This document shows positions 2 to 12,376 of a DNA stretch of 35,546 nt, piece after piece. A program made the translations under genes and the position numbers. The stretch lies in assembly GCA_018895275.1 (NCBI GenBank), contig JAHIOQ010000108.1, forward strand, positions 1 through 35,546, given 5' to 3'. The notes beneath the pieces were generated by a model. That model saw only the letters and a program-made list of their open reading frames with translations, was not told the origin of the DNA and ran no database searches. Within the stretch, counting starts at the first letter, position 1, and each line of letters starts with the position of its first letter. Origin of the DNA: Candidatus Omnitrophota bacterium (lineage in GTDB: Bacteria; Omnitrophota; Gorgyraeia; B26-G9).

Positions 2-1594
2 GAGGTTATCGCGCATCTGATCGAAAAGTTTTATAAAGGGGATTTGAAAAAGGCGGTCTTGTCTACGGTGAAATGCCTGCGGGGCAGCTTCGCGATTGGG
101 GTAATAAGTATTTATCATCCGGGAATACTTGTTGCCGCGCGTAAAGACAGCCCTTTGATTATCGGCAAGGGAAAGGGCGAGAATTTTATTGCCTCGGACG
201 TGCCGGCAATCTTATCCCGGACGCGGGAGATTATTTATCTTGATAACGATGAAATCTGCGAATTGACGAAGGAAGAGGTAAAGGTCTATGACCTGTCCGG
301 GAAAGAGGTAAAAAAGAAAAAGGTGCTGATTCAATGGGACGCGCAGAGCGCGGAAAAGGCGGGGTATCCGCATTTTATGATTAAGGAAATCCACGAACAG
401 CCGCAGGTCATGCGCCAGATTATTGCCAACCGCATCAAAAATAACCGTGTAGTATTTGAGGAATTGGCGCTTTCCGCGGCAAAGCTCAAGCGGATTGAAA
501 ACATTCAGATTGTTGCCTGCGGCACGGCGTACCATGCCGGCTTATGCGGTAAATATATCCTGGAAAAATTGCTGCGGATTCCGGTGAATGTCGATACTTC
601 CAGTGAGTTCCGCTATCGGGAACAGATTATAAAGAAAGATAAAACGCTTATTATTCCCGTGAGCCAGTCCGGAGAAACTGCCGACACCCTGGCCAGCCTG
701 CGGGAGGCAAAGAGCAAAGGCGCGCTTATCCTGTCTATTTGCAATGTCGTCGGCAGTTCGATTGCCCGGGAATCCGACGGGGTTATCTATATTCTCGCCG
801 GCCCGGAGATTGCCGTGGCTTCGACCAAGGCATATACGGCACAGCTGGCGAATTTTTACCTGCTGGCCTTGTATTTAGGCGCGCTCAAGGGAATGCTCGG
901 CGCTAAAGCCGTGAAACGGCATCTGGATACTTTATTAACCGTGCCGAAACTCATGGAAGAGGCGTTGCGTTCTAAGAATAAGGTAAAAAAGACCGCGGAT
1001 GATTATGTGAGTAAATATAATTACCGGCTTGCCGAGCAGTTTAAGTTTCTGGAAGACGAAATTTCCCTGTTTAAGGACGGCCGCAAGGCATTGGCGTTTG
1101 CCGAACAATTGGCAAAAAAATCGCACTCTGCTTACGGTAAACGGTTCGGCGATTTTCCGTTCCTGTATCTGGGCAGAAACGTTAATTATCCCAGCGCGCT
1201 CGAAGGCGCTTTAAAGTTGAAAGAAATCACCTATATCAGCGCCGAAGGCTATGCCGCAGGAGAGATGAAGCATGGGCCGATCGCGCTGATTGACGAATTC
1301 CCTCTGGTTGTGTGTATCGCGCCGCAGTCAAGCGTTTATGAAAAGATGCTTTCGAATATCCGGGAGATAAAGGCGCGCAAAGGCGTTGTCCTGGCGATAG
1401 CGACAAAGGGAGACAGGGAGATCCGCAAGAAAGAAAATTCCGACTATGTTCTGGATATCCCGCAAATCGATGAATTCTTTTCCCCGCTTATCGTTGCCCT
1501 GCCGCTGCAGCTATTGGCCTATTACATTGCCGTGGGACTGGAGTGTGATGTCGACCAGCCGCGAAACCTGGCCAAGAGCGTGACCGTTGAATAG
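2..1594 (+). CDS. glmS: Glutamine--fructose-6-phosphate aminotransferase (isomerizing), 5'-truncated by window edge
   Basis: Frame open from nt 2; SIS-domain motifs 'VACGTAYHAG', 'PVSQSGETADTLASLREAK', 'ALEGALKLKEITYISAEGYAAGEMKHGPIALID', C-terminal 'DQPRNLAKSVTVE'. Confidence 0.96.
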   Translation, partial: EVIAHLIEKFYKGDLKKAVLSTVKCLRGSFAIGVISIYHPGILVAARKDSPLIIGKGKGENFIASDVPAILSRTREIIYLDNDEICELTKEEVKVYDLSGKEVKKKKVLIQWDAQSAEKAGYPHFMIKEIHEQPQVMRQIIANRIKNNRVVFEELALSAAKLKRIENIQIVACGTAYHAGLCGKYILEKLLRIPVNVDTSSEFRYREQIIKKDKTLIIPVSQSGETADTLASLREAKSKGALILSICNVVGSSIARESDGVIYILAGPEIAVASTKAYTAQLANFYLLALYLGALKGMLGAKAVKRHLDTLLTVPKLMEEALRSKNKVKKTADDYVSKYNYRLAEQFKFLEDEISLFKDGRKALAFAEQLAKKSHSAYGKRFGDFPFLYLGRNVNYPSALEGALKLKEITYISAEGYAAGEMKHGPIALIDEFPLVVCIAPQSSVYEKMLSNIREIKARKGVVLAIATKGDREIRKKENSDYVLDIPQIDEFFSPLIVALPLQLLAYYIAVGLECDVDQPRNLAKSVTVE

Positions 1595-1841: not shown

Positions 1842-4800
1842 ATGTTTTTAAAAAAAAGGAATAGGTATTGCTTAATAATAAGAATTATAAATTTTTTCAT
1901 CTTGCAGTGTTTTATAATTATAAATGTTCAAGGTGTTTTTGCTCAGGAGCAGCTCTTTTCTTTGAGACGCCGGCAGACAGATACCCTTTCTCCGTATTTA
2001 AATATTAAAGCCATAACCGTTCAATCAATCTTTTCCGATAAAAGTCAACAGCCGTTACCGCCGTTACCTGTTGAAAAATCTAAGGTTCGGTTAATGCCGC
2101 TATCATTGCGTGATACCGGAAGTATTGCGGAATTATTAGAAGGCAGCGAGGTATTCTTGAATGACTTATGGGCCAGAAAGACATTAGGCGTGCCGACAGC
2201 AATCAGCAGTCTTCGCAGTGAAGGTGATAATTTTGATGAATGGGATTGGGGCAGGGGTGACATGGGCGAATCCGGGCGCCGGCATATTTCATGGCTGGCC
2301 AGGAATGGTTTTTCCAGATGGATGCGTTTGCCTAACCGTAAAACTAACGCCTTATTCGGAGACCCCAGCCCTTATGCGGCGCGCAGCGCATTTGCCGGGG
2401 AAGATTCGGATATTGCCGTGCCGGAGGTGGAGGAATTTATTAAATCAGAACAAGCGCAAGCCTGGTATCGAGATAATAAACAACGGATTATGGATTTACA
2501 TAATGCAAAAAGAGTAGACGCGCTGGAAGTGGCCAGATTAAAAAATGAGGCTTTGTGGCTGGCGATGCAATATTTTAAAGAAAATCACTTAAATAAAAAT
2601 ACGCCGCGCGATAAAGCTTTTGATGAGTTTTTGCGCGACAATGACTGGGTAGATGATTACGCGCAATATATGGCGATAAGTGAATATTACTGGGATAAAA
2701 AAAAGGGTGTTTTTGATGAGATAAATAAAACTCTTTGGAGAGAGCTTGACGGAAAATTAAAAGGCCTGTTAAATGTTCTGCACCATGCAATGAAAATAGA
2801 GGGAACAAAAGATGTCGGGCAGTTATATGTACTGGTAGACGATTTTTTTAGGCGCTATTATGAGCAGAATATTGCCGGAAAAGAAACTAATAGGTTCCGG
2901 CTGAATATCTATGAGTTTTTGTTAAATAAAATAAAAGGGGGAGTTTTTAAAGCGCCTTTGAAGGGCAATATTGAATCTTTCATTAAAGCAGATTTTAATG
3001 GATGCCGAAATATGCTTTTTGATGGGTATGAGCGTTCAAAAAAAGCGTTCAATGATATGGAAGAAGCAATCGGGCAGGAATGTATGGCGGACTGGAGGAA
3101 TTGGGACAATGAAAAATTGGTGGAGCGCGATTCTGAAACTTTAGCCGGATACGGTTCGCTTTTGGAAGATAAGATATTGTTTCATAAGTACGCGCAGTTT
3201 GTCTTCAATGCGCAGGAAAAACAAATGAAAAAATTTGCCAACGACCATGGCATTGCAATTGAAGGGGATATTCCCTTTTATGTATCAACTATAAGCTGTG
3301 AAACGTGGGTGTATAAAAACAGGATTTTCCGGCTGGACTCGGAAAACCGGTATCAGCAGATGTTTGATACCGGCGCGCCGCCGGACCAGTATGACCGCGA
3401 ATACGGGCAGAACTGGGGCGGGACGCCTTATTATATAAATGAGGAGTTTAAGAAATTTTTCTATGAACGGACAAAACATGAATTAAAGAATGCGGACGGT
3501 ATACGTATCGATCATTTCCGGGCGCTTAATGATTTCTGGGTTATTCCCCATGGCAAGCTTGGCCGGGACGGTAGGTTCGAAGACGGGCCGAAGGATGAAT
3601 TATTACAGCCGTTGCTTAATCTGGCGTTGGGCCGGCTTAAACGTTTTTTTGCCGAAGACCTGGGCTCTGACCTGGAAGGGGTATGGGAGCTGATGCGCGA
3701 TAACGAGATCAAGGGGTTTCGTGTCGCGATATTTGGCCATGGGGATGATGATGATGTCTTGCACCGGAAATATAGCGGCCAGATCGCTTTTTCCGGAACA
3801 CATGATACCATGACCTGGATAGGCGCATGGGATAAGTGGGATGTTCCCAAACGAAAAATACTTCTGAACAGGTTTTTTTATGAAGATATCCCGGGGATTA
3901 TGGAGAGGTTGACGAAGGAACAGCAAAAAAACTTCTTTAAATTTCTTGATTATTTTGTAAAGCGATTAAAGAAAGACACGGCGGTTATAGAACAACCGGC
4001 GGATTTTCAATCCGTGCAGGACAATTTGTTTACCCCGTTAGAGAAAGCCCCCGACGAAGTCGGTGGTGGGAGAAATATAGACGCTGACGGTGGGTTAATG
4101 CCACCGTTAGCGGAAACCGTTAGGGAACGAAGTTCTCTAACGGGGTTTACTGCGGACGGCAGTTTTGAGGAAAAATTGCAGTTGATCCGCAAGATCTCGG
4201 AGGTTTTGGTTGATTTTGAGGAATTGCCCTTTGGCGTACAGGCCGCTATATTCGGAATCCTGGCTTTTTCCGAGGCGGATACGGTGTTTCTGCCGATGCA
4301 GGATATTTTCCGGCAGGGGGAAAAATATCGCATAAATGTCCCGGGTAAGCCCGGTGATTGGGGATACCGCCATCCGTTCACAGGTCAGGAATTGAATAAG
4401 GAAGAAATTAAAGAAATAAAAGAAGCCAATAAACTAATGCGGATGCTTGCTGAAACTTCAGGCCGGGATACCCGCAGGCCTTTATACAAAGAAGGCGAGG
4501 GCGCGCATATCCTGGGAGTTTCTCCGGGGGTTAACGCAAAGAAGATGTGCAAACAGGGAGGGGAATTTATTATCTGGGCGGCAGTACAGGGAGATAAACC
4601 GCAGAAAGTTACTCTGCTGACAAATATGCCGGAACACAAAGGCGCATATCCTATAGAACAGGCAGTTAAAATGGAGTTGGTAAAACAACTGTCTTCCGGA
4701 ACGTATCTTTACGGGGTAAGAATAAGAGCAACCCAGGCAGGGAAATGGGGGGTTGCGGTTGAGGCGGATAATGTAAGAGCCGGGGATGTTAAGGAAAATA

Positions 4801-6935
4801 CAAGTCTGGTTGTAACTGCACAGGAGGAAATAGAATTTCTGTCTGAAGAACAAATAAACGCGGCGCGTATTGCCGCAGGTATTTCAGCGGAAAAACTCCA
4901 ACAGATTTTTGCCCGGTTAATGCCGGAGACAGCCGCAGAACTTGAAGAGGTTTTAGGATATTATCAGCTTGATAGCGAAGTTGTTGATGAGGGGAAAATT
5001 AATCACACGAGGGGCATTGTCACGGATTTAGTGTATGGGAATGTATACCTTCTGCGTGAAAAATTGCTTAAGGCGGATGCCCGGCAGTTAAATAATGAAG
5101 TTCATCCCAGGTTAACGGATTCTGCTGAACGTGAATATATGAGGTATAATTGGTATTCTCCGGCAGTATCGAATAAATTAGTGCAGGATTTAATTAATAT
5201 TTCTGTTTTGCCCGGGGATCCGCAGCTTGTTATCGAACATCTGATTAAGATTTTTAATGAACGCAGAAACAGCCGGACAATAACTCAGGAAGCATTAAGA
5301 GCGATAGATAAATTAATCGCGAACGCCGCCGGGCTTTCCCGTGATGTTGTATTCAGAAAAGGGAAATTCTTCCTTTTGAACGAATTTAAGGATCCGGGCT
5401 CCAACCGGAAAATTTTGTCTTTTGCCCGCTATATGGGAAAAGGGAGAAAGGCGATTGTAATCAGTAATTGCGGTGATTCCCGTACGCACGGAACGCTACG
5501 GCTGAACCGCTATGATTTTGATAAGACATTCGGAATTTCGCGTATGCCGGGCAATTACTACGCGCTAATAGACAGAATTACCGGTGAGGTCTATCTGCGT
5601 GAAGGTAAGGAATTATTGGATAACGGGTTGTATTTTGAGCTTGCCGGCTACAGTTCCCATGTGTTTATGGTAAAGAACTTGCAGGATAATAACTGGGTTT
5701 TGGAAGCGATGCGCGACTGTTCTCAGGGAAAGGCATTGGGATTGGAACATGTTATTATGCTTTTAAATAATTTCGGGCTTACCCTGGATTTCCCCTGTAT
5801 CGGAAAAGCGGCTCAGGCCTTGAGCCTGCAGGGCCTTTTAAACAACATTACTGCCGCAGAACTGAAGCAGGCTTTTGAAAGTAATCCGGATATTGAGATA
5901 ATCGAATTTGAGACAAGCTTAGATGCGAATAGCACGAATAGCAGGCTGATAGCCGGGTTCAGGGAAAAAAACAAAGATAATAAAAAGGTTCGGGCTTTAT
6001 GCCTGGGCCTGGATTTTTTTAATCAGAGAGGAATGTTGGATAATATAAAGCTTGTCTCTAATTTTAACCGGGATAAAACATCGGTTGATGTCGGCAGATA
6101 CTATGGCCGAAGAGGAGATACCGGTTATATATATGTAAACTTATCAGAGCTGGCCATGGATTTAAACGAAGGCCCTAGAAGTGAAAGTGTTTATGCGGGT
6201 ATAATCGGTGAATGGATAGAACAAAGTGTTGAAAGATCTTTTTCCTGGGGTGGTTTGGGAGATGATAAAATGCGGCAGGCTTTTGAGGCGTTTTTAGCGC
6301 TTTGGGCGGAAGACAGATTAGACATGCCGAAATTAATAAGCAGTGAACATGAAGGAATAAAGCAGATTTTGGCAGAGATCGAAAATGATGTTGAGCCAAT
6401 AGTACAAGTTCTATGGGGGTCGCGTTTTGATTCTATTGAAAAAAAGGAGAATGAGTTTATTTTTTCGTATTTAAGAAGAATGCAGATGGATTTGAGTTTT
6501 GAAAATTTTTTTTATAATAAAACCAATTTAAACACAATAAAGAACTTTGCTTATTTTTTACCGTATTATTTGGCTAATTCCGAACAGCCGGATAATATCC
6601 GCGATATTTTGGTTGAAGGATTTTCCGAAGGAAAAGGCTCCTATTACGAGAAATATTTTCTTGATAAGTTTGTGTACGGGGCGCTGGTTTTAAGGGACAG
6701 TAAAATAGATGAGATTTTTATTGATTTACTGGAAAATCCTCCGCCGGATTTGGATTTTTATTTCCAGGCATTTGTGATAAAAGCAATGCACGGCCTAAAG
6801 CGTTTTGATTTAAAAGTGGACGGAATTTCCGTTGAGCGTCTCGGGGCGATTCTGAAATCCGGTAAAGAGATTCAAGCGCTTCATGAGGCGGTAAGCACGG
6901 TCCAGCGGTATGAGGCGCTTGAACAGGCGATATAA
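1842..6935 (+). CDS. Giant exported protein A: signal peptide, GH77 4-alpha-glucanotransferase domain, beta-rich and amylase-C-like regions, unknown C-terminus
   Basis: ATG at 1842 preceded by 'aggagtagg' gives signal peptide 'MFLKKRNRYCLIIRIINFFILQCFIIINVQGVFA'; GH77-like 'GDPSPYAARSAFAGED', 'IEGDIPFYV', 'GIRIDHFRAL', 'FAEDLG', 'AFSGTHDTMTW'; ORF track start (1671, GTG) is probably overextended. Confidence 0.85.
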   Translation: MFLKKRNRYCLIIRIINFFILQCFIIINVQGVFAQEQLFSLRRRQTDTLSPYLNIKAITVQSIFSDKSQQPLPPLPVEKSKVRLMPLSLRDTGSIAELLEGSEVFLNDLWARKTLGVPTAISSLRSEGDNFDEWDWGRGDMGESGRRHISWLARNGFSRWMRLPNRKTNALFGDPSPYAARSAFAGEDSDIAVPEVEEFIKSEQAQAWYRDNKQRIMDLHNAKRVDALEVARLKNEALWLAMQYFKENHLNKNTPRDKAFDEFLRDNDWVDDYAQYMAISEYYWDKKKGVFDEINKTLWRELDGKLKGLLNVLHHAMKIEGTKDVGQLYVLVDDFFRRYYEQNIAGKETNRFRLNIYEFLLNKIKGGVFKAPLKGNIESFIKADFNGCRNMLFDGYERSKKAFNDMEEAIGQECMADWRNWDNEKLVERDSETLAGYGSLLEDKILFHKYAQFVFNAQEKQMKKFANDHGIAIEGDIPFYVSTISCETWVYKNRIFRLDSENRYQQMFDTGAPPDQYDREYGQNWGGTPYYINEEFKKFFYERTKHELKNADGIRIDHFRALNDFWVIPHGKLGRDGRFEDGPKDELLQPLLNLALGRLKRFFAEDLGSDLEGVWELMRDNEIKGFRVAIFGHGDDDDVLHRKYSGQIAFSGTHDTMTWIGAWDKWDVPKRKILLNRFFYEDIPGIMERLTKEQQKNFFKFLDYFVKRLKKDTAVIEQPADFQSVQDNLFTPLEKAPDEVGGGRNIDADGGLMPPLAETVRERSSLTGFTADGSFEEKLQLIRKISEVLVDFEELPFGVQAAIFGILAFSEADTVFLPMQDIFRQGEKYRINVPGKPGDWGYRHPFTGQELNKEEIKEIKEANKLMRMLAETSGRDTRRPLYKEGEGAHILGVSPGVNAKKMCKQGGEFIIWAAVQGDKPQKVTLLTNMPEHKGAYPIEQAVKMELVKQLSSGTYLYGVRIRATQAGKWGVAVEADNVRAGDVKENTSLVVTAQEEIEFLSEEQINAARIAAGISAEKLQQIFARLMPETAAELEEVLGYYQLDSEVVDEGKINHTRGIVTDLVYGNVYLLREKLLKADARQLNNEVHPRLTDSAEREYMRYNWYSPAVSNKLVQDLINISVLPGDPQLVIEHLIKIFNERRNSRTITQEALRAIDKLIANAAGLSRDVVFRKGKFFLLNEFKDPGSNRKILSFARYMGKGRKAIVISNCGDSRTHGTLRLNRYDFDKTFGISRMPGNYYALIDRITGEVYLREGKELLDNGLYFELAGYSSHVFMVKNLQDNNWVLEAMRDCSQGKALGLEHVIMLLNNFGLTLDFPCIGKAAQALSLQGLLNNITAAELKQAFESNPDIEIIEFETSLDANSTNSRLIAGFREKNKDNKKVRALCLGLDFFNQRGMLDNIKLVSNFNRDKTSVDVGRYYGRRGDTGYIYVNLSELAMDLNEGPRSESVYAGIIGEWIEQSVERSFSWGGLGDDKMRQAFEAFLALWAEDRLDMPKLISSEHEGIKQILAEIENDVEPIVQVLWGSRFDSIEKKENEFIFSYLRRMQMDLSFENFFYNKTNLNTIKNFAYFLPYYLANSEQPDNIRDILVEGFSEGKGSYYEKYFLDKFVYGALVLRDSKIDEIFIDLLENPPPDLDFYFQAFVIKAMHGLKRFDLKVDGISVERLGAILKSGKEIQALHEAVSTVQRYEALEQAI
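4028..4150. repeat. Palindromic element inserted in frame within giant gene A
   Basis: Direct repeats GTTTAC at 4028-4033 and 4145-4150 (117 nt apart); terminal inverted repeat ACCCCGTTAGAGAA (4032-4045) / TTCTCTAACGGGGT (4133-4146); internal hairpins CCGAC-gaa-GTCGG, ACGGTGG-n7-CCACCGT, CCGTTAGGGAAC-gaa-GTTCTCTAACGG. Confidence 0.75.
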
Positions 6936-6938
6936 CTT

Positions 6939-6974
6939 AGTTCATTAGCTCATGGTTCATGGCTGATAGCTTAT
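6939..6974 (+). repeat. Degenerate heptanucleotide tandem array between giant genes A and B
   Basis: AGTTCAT-TAGCTCAT-GGTTCAT-GGCTGAT-AGCTTAT. Confidence 0.5.
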
Positions 6975-6982
6975 AACTTCTT

Positions 6983-9900
6983 ATGAAAAAAATATTTAAA
7001 ACAAGCTCAATAATCTTAATTCAAGCCTTCCTGGCAATGAATTTTGCCTGGGGGGGGGTAAATGATTTTCAGAGTGATTCAATAGTTTTCTCTCAGGATA
7101 CGCTTTCCCCGGCATTGCAGATCAACACGCCTTTACTGCGGCAGGTTATGCGGCAGGAAACTGCCTTTGATTATGCGGCAAATCTGGTCGAGATATATCA
7201 AAAAAACGCCTATAAAACGTATATCCAGATTTTTGCGCGTCCTGAGGGCTATCGCGTAGTAATAAAAGCCGAGCATGAAAGGCCGCTGACCCTGCACTGG
7301 GGGGTGAATCATTGGCAAAAACCGCCGGAGGCAATAATTCCTAACGGCAATGGTTATAGCACCTATGTTGATGAAACTACCGGAGCAACCCGCACGGAAG
7401 TCCAATCACAGGCTAAGGGCAATAATGTTTTTGTTATTGATATCCCTACGCTGCTGATTGATTCCATAGAAAACTTAAAATTTGTTTTTTTTGATGAGAA
7501 TACGGCTATTCAGGATATTGGCTTTAAGGACTATGAGGTGCCCATAAAAAATGCCCTGGATAAAACCATAGAGGAAATGGAACAGGGCAAGGGAAAAAGT
7601 GAAGAAAATAGATCAAAACTTGAGCAATTGCTTAAAAACCGGCTGACCCCGCCGCCAGGCCCAGGTGAACAGGATTTGAATGATAACGTACTTTATTCTA
7701 AAACAGGAAATAATGTTATTTCCGAGGTAATAAGGGGGGAAGGCGGCTTTAAGATAAATTTTTGGGTTATCAGCAACGATAAGCCGCAGTTATACTGGGG
7801 GATTAACGGCTGGCAGATGCCATCAAAGGATATTTTGCCTGCGGATACCCGTTTAGGGAAGAAAAATGAAGAGCCGGCAGTGTATACGGATATGGATAAA
7901 GAATCAGAAGACGGTTTGTACACGACATCAATATTTATCTCCGATGAGAAATGGCCGCATATAACGGAAATCAATTTTAATATCCATTATCCGGATAACG
8001 GGCATCGTGATACTAACGAGGATAAGCATTATGATCTTAAACTCACCGGCCCGGAGATGATCGGCTCTTTAGCAAAAAGAGTAAATAACATATATTTACC
8101 CGAGCCTCAGCGCAAAGAGACCGCCATGCTTTTAAAAAACGCGTTAACCGTTTTTGCCGAAGAAATATCTTATGAAGAGTTGTTGAAAATATTTCAAGAG
8201 GTTAAAGGCATTTCCTTTGAAGAGCAGGAGTCCTTGGGATTTATTTTGATCGCCAAGCTTCTTAACGAAGGCGCGGTTTGGGATGAGGCACAGGGGCGGA
8301 TAATTGTGGATAAAAACAAGGTTTCAACTGCCGTGGCTGAGCTCATTGACCGGCTTGACCCGCTTTGTGTGAACAAGTGTCTTTATCTTTTCGGCATGCT
8401 GGAACCATCCTGGATTTCAAGGCTTGTGCACGGCTTGGATTACAGGCAGTTGTATGAAGGCCAGCAAAGCGGCAGGATAACGGATTTAAGGCAGTTTATC
8501 CAGGATAAAATAAACGCATATGATGCTGAGGATAAGCCGGAGGTTTTGGAAGCAAAAGCTGTTAGTGGAAGCCGTTTATTTTTAAAAATGAATTTTAACG
8601 GCAATGTTATTTCAACATTTATGGGCTATGTTACGAAAGAAGACAAGTATTATTATAATGGTAAAAGAGTTGTTTTAAGGGATACCCTTGGTAATGAATT
8701 TTCAAGGCTAAATTTGCGCTTAGGCCGGCATGTGGATAAGGAAAAAATAAGAGTACTTATAGAAGACGGTCATAAGAAGGGCATAAAATTCATGGTTAAT
8801 TTTTTTGACTGGCATTCGCCTGAGGTCTTGAATAAAGATAATTATATGTATTATCATCACAAATTTCTCGGCAAAAATAAGGATGAGCTGACCATATTAT
8901 CAATTTTGGATAATTATGCGACAATCTTATCTCTTCCGGACGGCAGAAAGGTTTTGGTCATGCACCGACCGCTTAGCGCGGACCAGTTAAAGCCGAATTT
9001 AACCCTGGATAGTAGGAGCGGTAATTATTGGAAACAGAAATTTTTAGAGCATATGAGATATTTTATCGATGAGTTTGATATAGATGCCTTTCGGGTTGAC
9101 CTGCCCGGAGAACTGGAAGAAGCCGGGAACAGAGAGGTGTTTCAGTCTGCCTGTTTTGAGGCAGTGGAATATGCCGCGCGAAAAGGCAAAAAGATATTTT
9201 TTTGCCTTGAGGCATATTCAAAAAATTATTTCGGCACGGATGAATGCGCGCTGTTTAACGACTGGAATAATCATGCTGAAATAAGAAAATATAGATATAA
9301 GCCCTTCCGGCCTTATTATGATATGGTAAATAAAAGCTTGCTGACAGGCAATATCACTGAATTAAAAGCAGCCTTTGAAAGGATTGTGCGGCGTGTGGAG
9401 GAACTGGTTTCCTTATTTACTAATTTTGATGAAGAGCTGCTCAAAGACATGATTCCGGATAAAGAAGCGCGCGAAAAGCATGTCATGATGTTATATAATT
9501 TTGTGCGCGCCGGTTTTGACGCCTTGATGTATTTAAGGGATTTAGGCATAGGTGATATCGTAAGTATGGTCGGCGGAAAAAGTATAGGCTGGGGGGCTCT
9601 AGTACGTTATTTTACTCATAAGCCTGCGACTAAAAGGGAATTCCGCGCAAGAATGGAAAAATCCACCGGAGAGCTTGTGGATGAATCAGCGCTTTATCAA
9701 ATAATGAAAAACGCGGGCAGACACAGCTTTTCCCGGGTGTTTTTTAGAGGCAATAAGATTGTTTTTTACCGGCCGGGCTATGCGCCTGAGGTCTTTGATC
9801 TGGATAAGATGGTCTCTCCCATGCCGGCTATTGAGCTTTTGGATATGGAGCATTATGTTAACTTGTGGCTTGATGAACATGTGCTTTCTATCCCCAACGT

Positions 9901-12376: not shown

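Follow-up and report, generated by a model that had tools for sequence, protein, structure and literature searches.

The window, i.e. the whole stretch of 35,546 nucleotides that was analysed, corresponds to contig C85 of an Omnitrophota MAG (G000; 2.56 Mb, 89% complete). It contains two neighbouring genes on the forward strand, ORF1 (P0001, 1842–6935) and ORF2 (P0002, 6983–12376), which are separated by a gap of 47 bases. Two adjacent giant ORFs had been noticed here in a sequence-only reading, and our analysis bears this out with products of 1,697 and 1,797 residues, respectively. Read from an upstream GTG, ORF1 would comprise 1,754 residues. Support for the ATG at 1842 as the true start comes from the ortholog P0006, which is 62% identical to ORF1 over the entire length and opens with a matching MFFRKRNSY. 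The orthologs of ORF2 show 69% and 44% identity. Among 5.8 billion proteins, full-length relatives are limited to one for ORF1 and two for ORF2. A search for the gene pair in related genomes, proposed as a check in the same reading, recovered it in three of the 12 family genomes searched (G000, G002 and G008). Upstream of the pair lies glmS (2–1594, forward strand), a conserved neighbour given here for context only. A Fic/DOC-family protein without the terminal signature described below is encoded shortly 3' of the pair (13076–13828).

ORF1 begins with a predicted signal peptide (1842–1943; family N-terminal profile, E = 5e-18), presumably cleaved between INVQGVFA and QEQ, followed by a TLSP box (TDTLSPYLNI, 1977–2006). 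The GH77 domain (2244–4385; PF02446, E = 5.4e-77) contains insertions, and Asp614 (codon at 3510), Glu662 (3654) and Asp712 (3804) fit the GH77 catalytic motifs RIDHF, AEDLG and GTHD. Within this domain, a palindromic element of about 125 nucleotides is inserted in frame (4028–4152, forward strand). It has perfect terminal inverted repeats of 14 bp, occurs in copies of 93–94% identity on contigs C75, C87 and C24, and is missing from the ortholog P0006; in kind, the insertion resembles the Rickettsia palindromic elements. The C-terminal 655 residues were predicted with a mean pLDDT of only 53. ORF1 ends in LEQAI (6918–6932), its ortholog in IGQAI.

In ORF2 the predicted signal peptide (MKKIFKTSSIILIQAFLAMNFAWG; 6983–7054, profile E = 1e-22), with a putative cleavage site at its end, and the TLSP box (QDTLSPALQI, 7094–7123) are followed by two Ig/starch-binding domains of the alpha-glucan water dikinase type (PF23166). 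The first is located at 7238–7516 (Pfam E = 7.9e-9), the second approximately at 7688–8041, in line with the two PF23166 stretches given by Pfam and with a beta domain in the AlphaFold model (pLDDT about 70–83). A GH77 domain (10451 to approximately 11662; PF02446, E = 5.2e-28) matches positions 1–214 of the profile only and has RLDAL in place of RIDHF; its residues Asp1443 (11309), Glu1485 (11435) and Asp1525 (11555) are invariant in three orthologs. The protein terminates with LVEQAV (12356–12373). Hence, the GH77 assignment of both proteins is upheld by profile matches and preserved catalytic triads, and the two starch-binding-like modules claimed for ORF2 reappear as PF23166 stretches in Pfam. 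The signal-peptide-like N-termini described earlier also agree with our assessment by eye and profile, in which both are of the Sec type with AxA-like ends.

The additional GH13 domain claimed for ORF2 is a mixed case. In the region around 8540–9862 the motifs GIKFMVN, DAFRVD, CLEAY and TNFDEE occur in the expected order, and their residues Asp706 (9098), Glu743 (9209) and Asp816 (9428) are invariant across three orthologs. A Pfam search of the middle region gave no GH13 match, and the best profile match, neopullulanase, is sub-significant (E = 0.058). The AlphaFold model of this region has a pLDDT below 50, too poor to judge the fold. For the N-terminal 1,061 residues as a whole the mean pLDDT is 52, and a fold search with this model retrieved Ig-like antibody domains only and was set aside. 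Judged by the ordered motifs, a GH13 identity of the middle region is plausible.

The enzymes had furthermore been presented as not described. This is too strong, as both GH13–GH77 fusions and secreted GH77 proteins have precedents. Such fusions exist as the NCBIfam models PRK14510 (GlgX/GH77) and PRK14507 (TreY/GH77). The GH77 catalytic domain is common to these models, to single-domain MalQ and to our pair, and the fusions likewise join enzymes of clan GH-H. However, ORF2 scores far under the curated cut-offs of the fusion models (e.g. 42.6 versus 1322 bits), and in contrast to them and to MalQ the pair is predicted to be exported, carries extra starch-binding domains and has a GH13 part that Pfam does not see. 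In plants, DPE2 and glucan water dikinase possess starch-binding domains of the CBM20/CBM45 type. ORF2 resembles them in that Ig-like domains of the glucan water dikinase type (PF23166) precede a glucan-active enzyme. Unlike the plant dikinase, it is bacterial, lacks a dikinase domain, combines a GH13-like with a GH77 region and is predicted to be exported.

Conserved ends of the two proteins

ORF1 and ORF2 have the TLSP box and an EQAI/EQAV tail in common, which the sequence-only reading had overlooked. The N-terminal part of this signature was traced from matches to residues 1–58 of ORF2 in unrelated large ORFs, which share the start MKKLLKITSVILIQAFLVMDFAWAG, followed by 10–25 residues and the box [ST]L[SA]PxLxI. 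With a profile built from 18 such N-termini we found 28 carriers in G000 and 7–46 per genome in all 12 genomes of the family; contamination of one MAG is thereby excluded as the source of the signature. Two of the 82 carriers evaluated (L155 and L156) were spotted first by their tail and added to the profile afterwards. A profile of the signal part only yielded 76 matches, of which 69 possess the L[SA]P box, with a background frequency of 2.5% per 48 residues, and 72 possess the tail.

A hydrophobic core is found in 72 of the 82 carriers and an AxA-like site ahead of the box in 67. The median cysteine content is 0.56% in carriers versus 1.24% in other proteins (p = 5e-12; the protein types in this comparison are unmatched), a depletion that is expected for export. 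The predicted Sec export of the carriers is supported by the form of the signal, the AxA-like sites and the low cysteine content. Lipoproteins and Tat substrates are ruled out, since a lipobox cysteine and a twin-arginine motif occur in one of 82 carriers each. Alternatively, the hydrophobic segment could act as an uncleaved anchor that keeps the enzymes in the cytosol at the membrane. This would suit the cargo, many functions of which are cytosolic and depend on ATP, NAD or DNA. It would leave the AxA-like sites in front of the box and the cysteine depletion unaccounted for, while the Lys/Arg-rich N-terminus favours an outward orientation of the C-terminus, and we consider such an anchor quite improbable.

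The C-terminal consensus is [LF]-[IV]-E-Q-[AS]-[IV]-COOH, most commonly L-[IV]-E-Q-A-I. An [AS][IV] ending was found in 75 of 82 complete carriers versus 13 of 327 other proteins (Fisher p about 1e-59), in statistics that cover the carrier loci and 429 kb of G000 stretches picked without regard to carriers; several of these 13 are truncated or frame-broken members. Within the unselected 429 kb the ending is present in four of five carriers versus eight of 280 others, two of which are missed family members. The bodies of the carriers fall into 57 BLAST clusters, and the tail occurs in 42 of the 47 singletons. Conservation is restricted to the last six residues, with 1.1–3.3 bits each compared with about 0.2–0.5 upstream. 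The codons used for the tail differ, as do the stop codons and the DNA behind them, so that selection acts on the protein. Chance or composition as origin of the tail is excluded by the enrichment and the information per position, recent duplication by the 57 body clusters and the differing codons, and a repeated DNA element at the gene ends by a downstream identity of 25%. Sequence statistics could hardly make the two-ended signature more certain. These numbers also bear on another explanation of the pair, namely that both are ordinary secreted scavengers of starch or glycogen whose shared ends reflect lineage-typical signal peptides and chance. GH77, CBM45-like, CBM48 and debranching domains would suit the breakdown of alpha-glucans, but a tail so far beyond chance, which moreover occurs in unrelated enzymes, among them PGK, FBPase, GGDEF and radical SAM proteins, makes this explanation very improbable.

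A C-terminal element also marks many unrelated proteins in known sorting systems, i.e. LPXTG/sortase, PEP-CTERM/exosortase, the C-terminal domain (CTD) of the T9SS and the outer-membrane beta-signal. All four were tried and rejected for the tagged proteins. LPxTG is found in 0 of 75, PEP within the last 40 residues in 0 of 75 and a TM-like C-terminus in one of 75, which excludes sortase and exosortase substrates. The limitation of conservation to the last six residues is incompatible with the Ig-like CTD of about 80 residues in T9SS proteins, and a terminal aromatic residue, as in the C-terminal signal of outer-membrane beta-barrels, is present in 0 of 75. The peroxisomal and glycosomal PTS1 is a short motif at the extreme C-terminus of glycolytic enzymes and provides the closest analogy to the tail. 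In contrast to PTS1 and the sorting systems, the Omnitrophota tail goes together with a box and an export signal at the N-terminus.

Cargo and destination of the tagged proteins

Judged by their ends, ORF1 and ORF2 are members of a large family of tagged exported-type proteins with a median carrier size of 1,044 residues. In G000 it includes a PGK fused to a response regulator receiver (L137:333-2777), a GlpX FBPase with FBP aldolase (L133:1-4221), a PGM/PMM with ROK (L134:3-5519) and a glycogen synthase, GlgA (L145:211-2484). Pfam further identified CBM48, CYTH with PRK and DHH, carbohydrate kinase with APH and methyltransferase, histidine kinase ATPases, LuxR HTH, GGDEF, methyltransferase 28 and xylose isomerase-like domains in this genome, and radical SAM with GFO/IDH/MocA as well as cNMP-binding domains in other genomes of the family. 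At L133, L134, L138 and L139 the ORF leaves the contig or stretch, so that the tail end lies outside the data. Tagged genes often form tandem runs of two to four (G000 contigs C42, C140, C48, C109 and C5). With an LpxR-type outer membrane protein that has the tail VDSSI (L142:142-1644), the cargo contains at least one family for which export is the rule. Ordinary PGK and GlgA genes are present in 12 of 12 genomes; the tagged PGK and GlgA are thus second copies. An ordinary GH77, split over contigs C58 and C117, also exists in G000.

Relatives of the pair extend its repertoire. The ORF2 ortholog of G008 continues into an amylo-1,6-glucosidase domain (GDE_C, E = 1.5e-71), and tagged GH77-like proteins of G010 and G011 contain GDE_N and GDE_C according to Pfam. 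As in G000, glmS adjoins a tagged glucan gene in G008 and G011. Together, the GDE domains and the adjacency to glmS fit a function of the predicted exported proteins in glycogen debranching.

For the giants of Velamenicoccus it was proposed that cast-off or degenerate domains serve as bulk of a coat or adhesin. If this applied to the tagged proteins, catalysis would be irrelevant; their large size, the existence of giants with the same ends and the many bodies in which Pfam recognises no domain would be in line with it. In comparison with solved structures, however, active-site motifs are kept in PGK (RxDxN, RF, HR, GGAK, WNGPLG), FBPase (ADGA, GEGERD, GGAPE), PGM (TASHN, DTDGDR, EESGG, RPSGTEP) and GlgA (QKG, EPCGL, and KTGGL with a Lys-to-Arg exchange). 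Both GH77 domains have likewise kept theirs, and even orthologs with no more than 44% identity share the catalytic residues without change. A mere structural role of the bodies is accordingly doubtful to a high degree.

The best reading, to which we give an even chance, is a dedicated two-ended address system that exports a second carbohydrate metabolism. The Sec-type signal peptide would carry the protein over the inner membrane and then be cleaved. The TLSPxLxI box, about 10–25 residues into the mature protein, and the last six residues would constitute the address, for which a receptor, a secretion machine or a PDZ-like protein is postulated as the reader. Enzymes of carbohydrate metabolism and signalling would thereby be placed, as second copies, in an extracytoplasmic location, where ORF1 and ORF2 may bind, disproportionate and debranch alpha-glucan, with the tagged glycogen synthase, the phosphoglucomutase/ROK kinase and the debranching enzyme as their putative partners. 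Export, cleavage, reading of both ends, destination and enzyme activities are what we infer from the sequences. Against this proposal, no receptor, protease or secretion machine has been identified. In addition, many tagged domains (PGK, radical SAM, GFO/IDH, LuxR HTH, histidine kinase ATPase) need ATP, NAD, SAM or DNA, which a normal periplasm does not provide. A search for an ATP/ADP translocase found none and matched no control either. A SecA-like DEAD/helicase with a weak preprotein-binding match is itself tagged (L139:2687-7879; the ORF leaves the contig) and represents a possible candidate for the export machinery.

The tail could also be a stability signal instead of an address. More specifically, it might be recognised by a PDZ-bearing tail-specific protease for degradation or processing and so set lifetime or maturation. 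A short motif at the extreme C-terminus, with a small residue followed by a terminal hydrophobic one, would be appropriate for this purpose, the terminal LxAA of family f29 (see below) resembles SsrA-type tails, and each of the 12 genomes encodes one S41 C-terminal processing peptidase. Such a protease would nevertheless have to act only on proteins that also bear the N-terminal box, and S41 peptidases are widespread among bacteria without the two-ended signature. We regard a protease signal as improbable, albeit less so than an anchor or a structural bulk.

With respect to the address system, the type of cargo points to a place in which nucleotides and sugar phosphates are available, i.e. a specialised compartment, a host or prey cell, or a vacuole. 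A specific version of this proposal would be delivery to another cell, either inside or around it, with a host, a prey or a host-derived vacuole as the target. Cargo domains of the cytosolic type are in its favour, because a partner cell would offer nucleotides and sugar phosphates, so that the tagging of kinases and PGK as well as of radical SAM and DNA-binding domains would be understandable. Omnitrophota have been described as symbiotic or predatory bacteria with giant proteins (PMC10066038). Chlamydia secretes MalQ (GH77), GlgX, GlgA, GlgB, GlgP and a phosphoglucomutase, CT295 (PMC4829429, PMC9251005), but by type III secretion without a signal peptide (PMC4829429). Since the tagged proteins bear Sec-type signals, they do not belong to a Chlamydia-type effector class. 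Furthermore, no partner cell is known for the source MAG and no translocator has been identified. We consider delivery to a partner cell rather unlikely.

The likeness to Chlamydia trachomatis, a bacterium of the PVC group, lies in the placement of housekeeping alpha-glucan enzymes, including GH77 and phosphoglucomutase, outside the own cytosol. The chlamydial enzymes have no shared C-terminal tail, whereas those of Omnitrophota combine Sec-type signal, box and tail and cover many more unrelated functions.

Distribution of the signature and giant proteins

Among 148 Omnitrophota genomes profiled, a strong signal was obtained in the family of G000 only and a weak one in 23 others. The sister family f29 exhibits the same layout with a box [ST]LAPxS and the terminal LxAA (L171–L186, L227–L243). 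Of its 23 carriers, 15 end with [AS]A and 19 with Ala, and [AS]A terminates two of 51 other proteins. The f29 cargo comprises phosphofructokinase, GT5 with GH13, and histidine kinase ATPase.

Giant ORFs were found at L247/L248 (7,423 residues), L250 (9,619), L253/L254 (11,305) and L257/L258 (10,736). Both ends are present in the 7,423-residue protein of f1 and in those of 10,736 and 11,305 residues of f29. For the 9,619-residue ORF of f1, which contains a GlgA-like domain, the tail alone was seen (LLEQAI); in a 45,379-residue ORF of G034 the signal is present and the tail absent. In other Omnitrophota, GH77-like domains also occur within open frames of 8,679–25,332 residues (G065 C26, G093 C5, G048 C5, G018 C70 and G076 C2). 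The giant ORFs of Velamenicoccus archaeovorus and others belong to the same phylum, some of the Omnitrophota giants carrying both ends of the signature; published accounts describe their size and domains. In the Omnitrophota literature outside subscription papers and bioRxiv, our searches turned up neither a two-ended signature common to several proteins nor central-metabolism enzymes with such tags.

Taken for the phylum, a tentative picture to which we assign somewhat less than an even chance is that Omnitrophota export a second set of enzymes for central carbohydrate metabolism and signalling to a dedicated compartment or a partner cell by means of a new two-ended signal, the tail chemistry of which diverged between families (EQAI versus LxAA) and which also marks some giants. 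A short tail on dozens of unrelated proteins per genome, combined with an N-terminal box, fits none of the sorting systems tested. As enzymes of glycolysis, gluconeogenesis and glycogen metabolism occur as tagged second copies, the question arises of where these bacteria run such chemistry. The signature also unites some of the unexplained giants of Omnitrophota and provides a simple sequence test for seeking the receptor or secretion machine. All in all, the shared signature suggests an undescribed protein-addressing system in this uncultured phylum.
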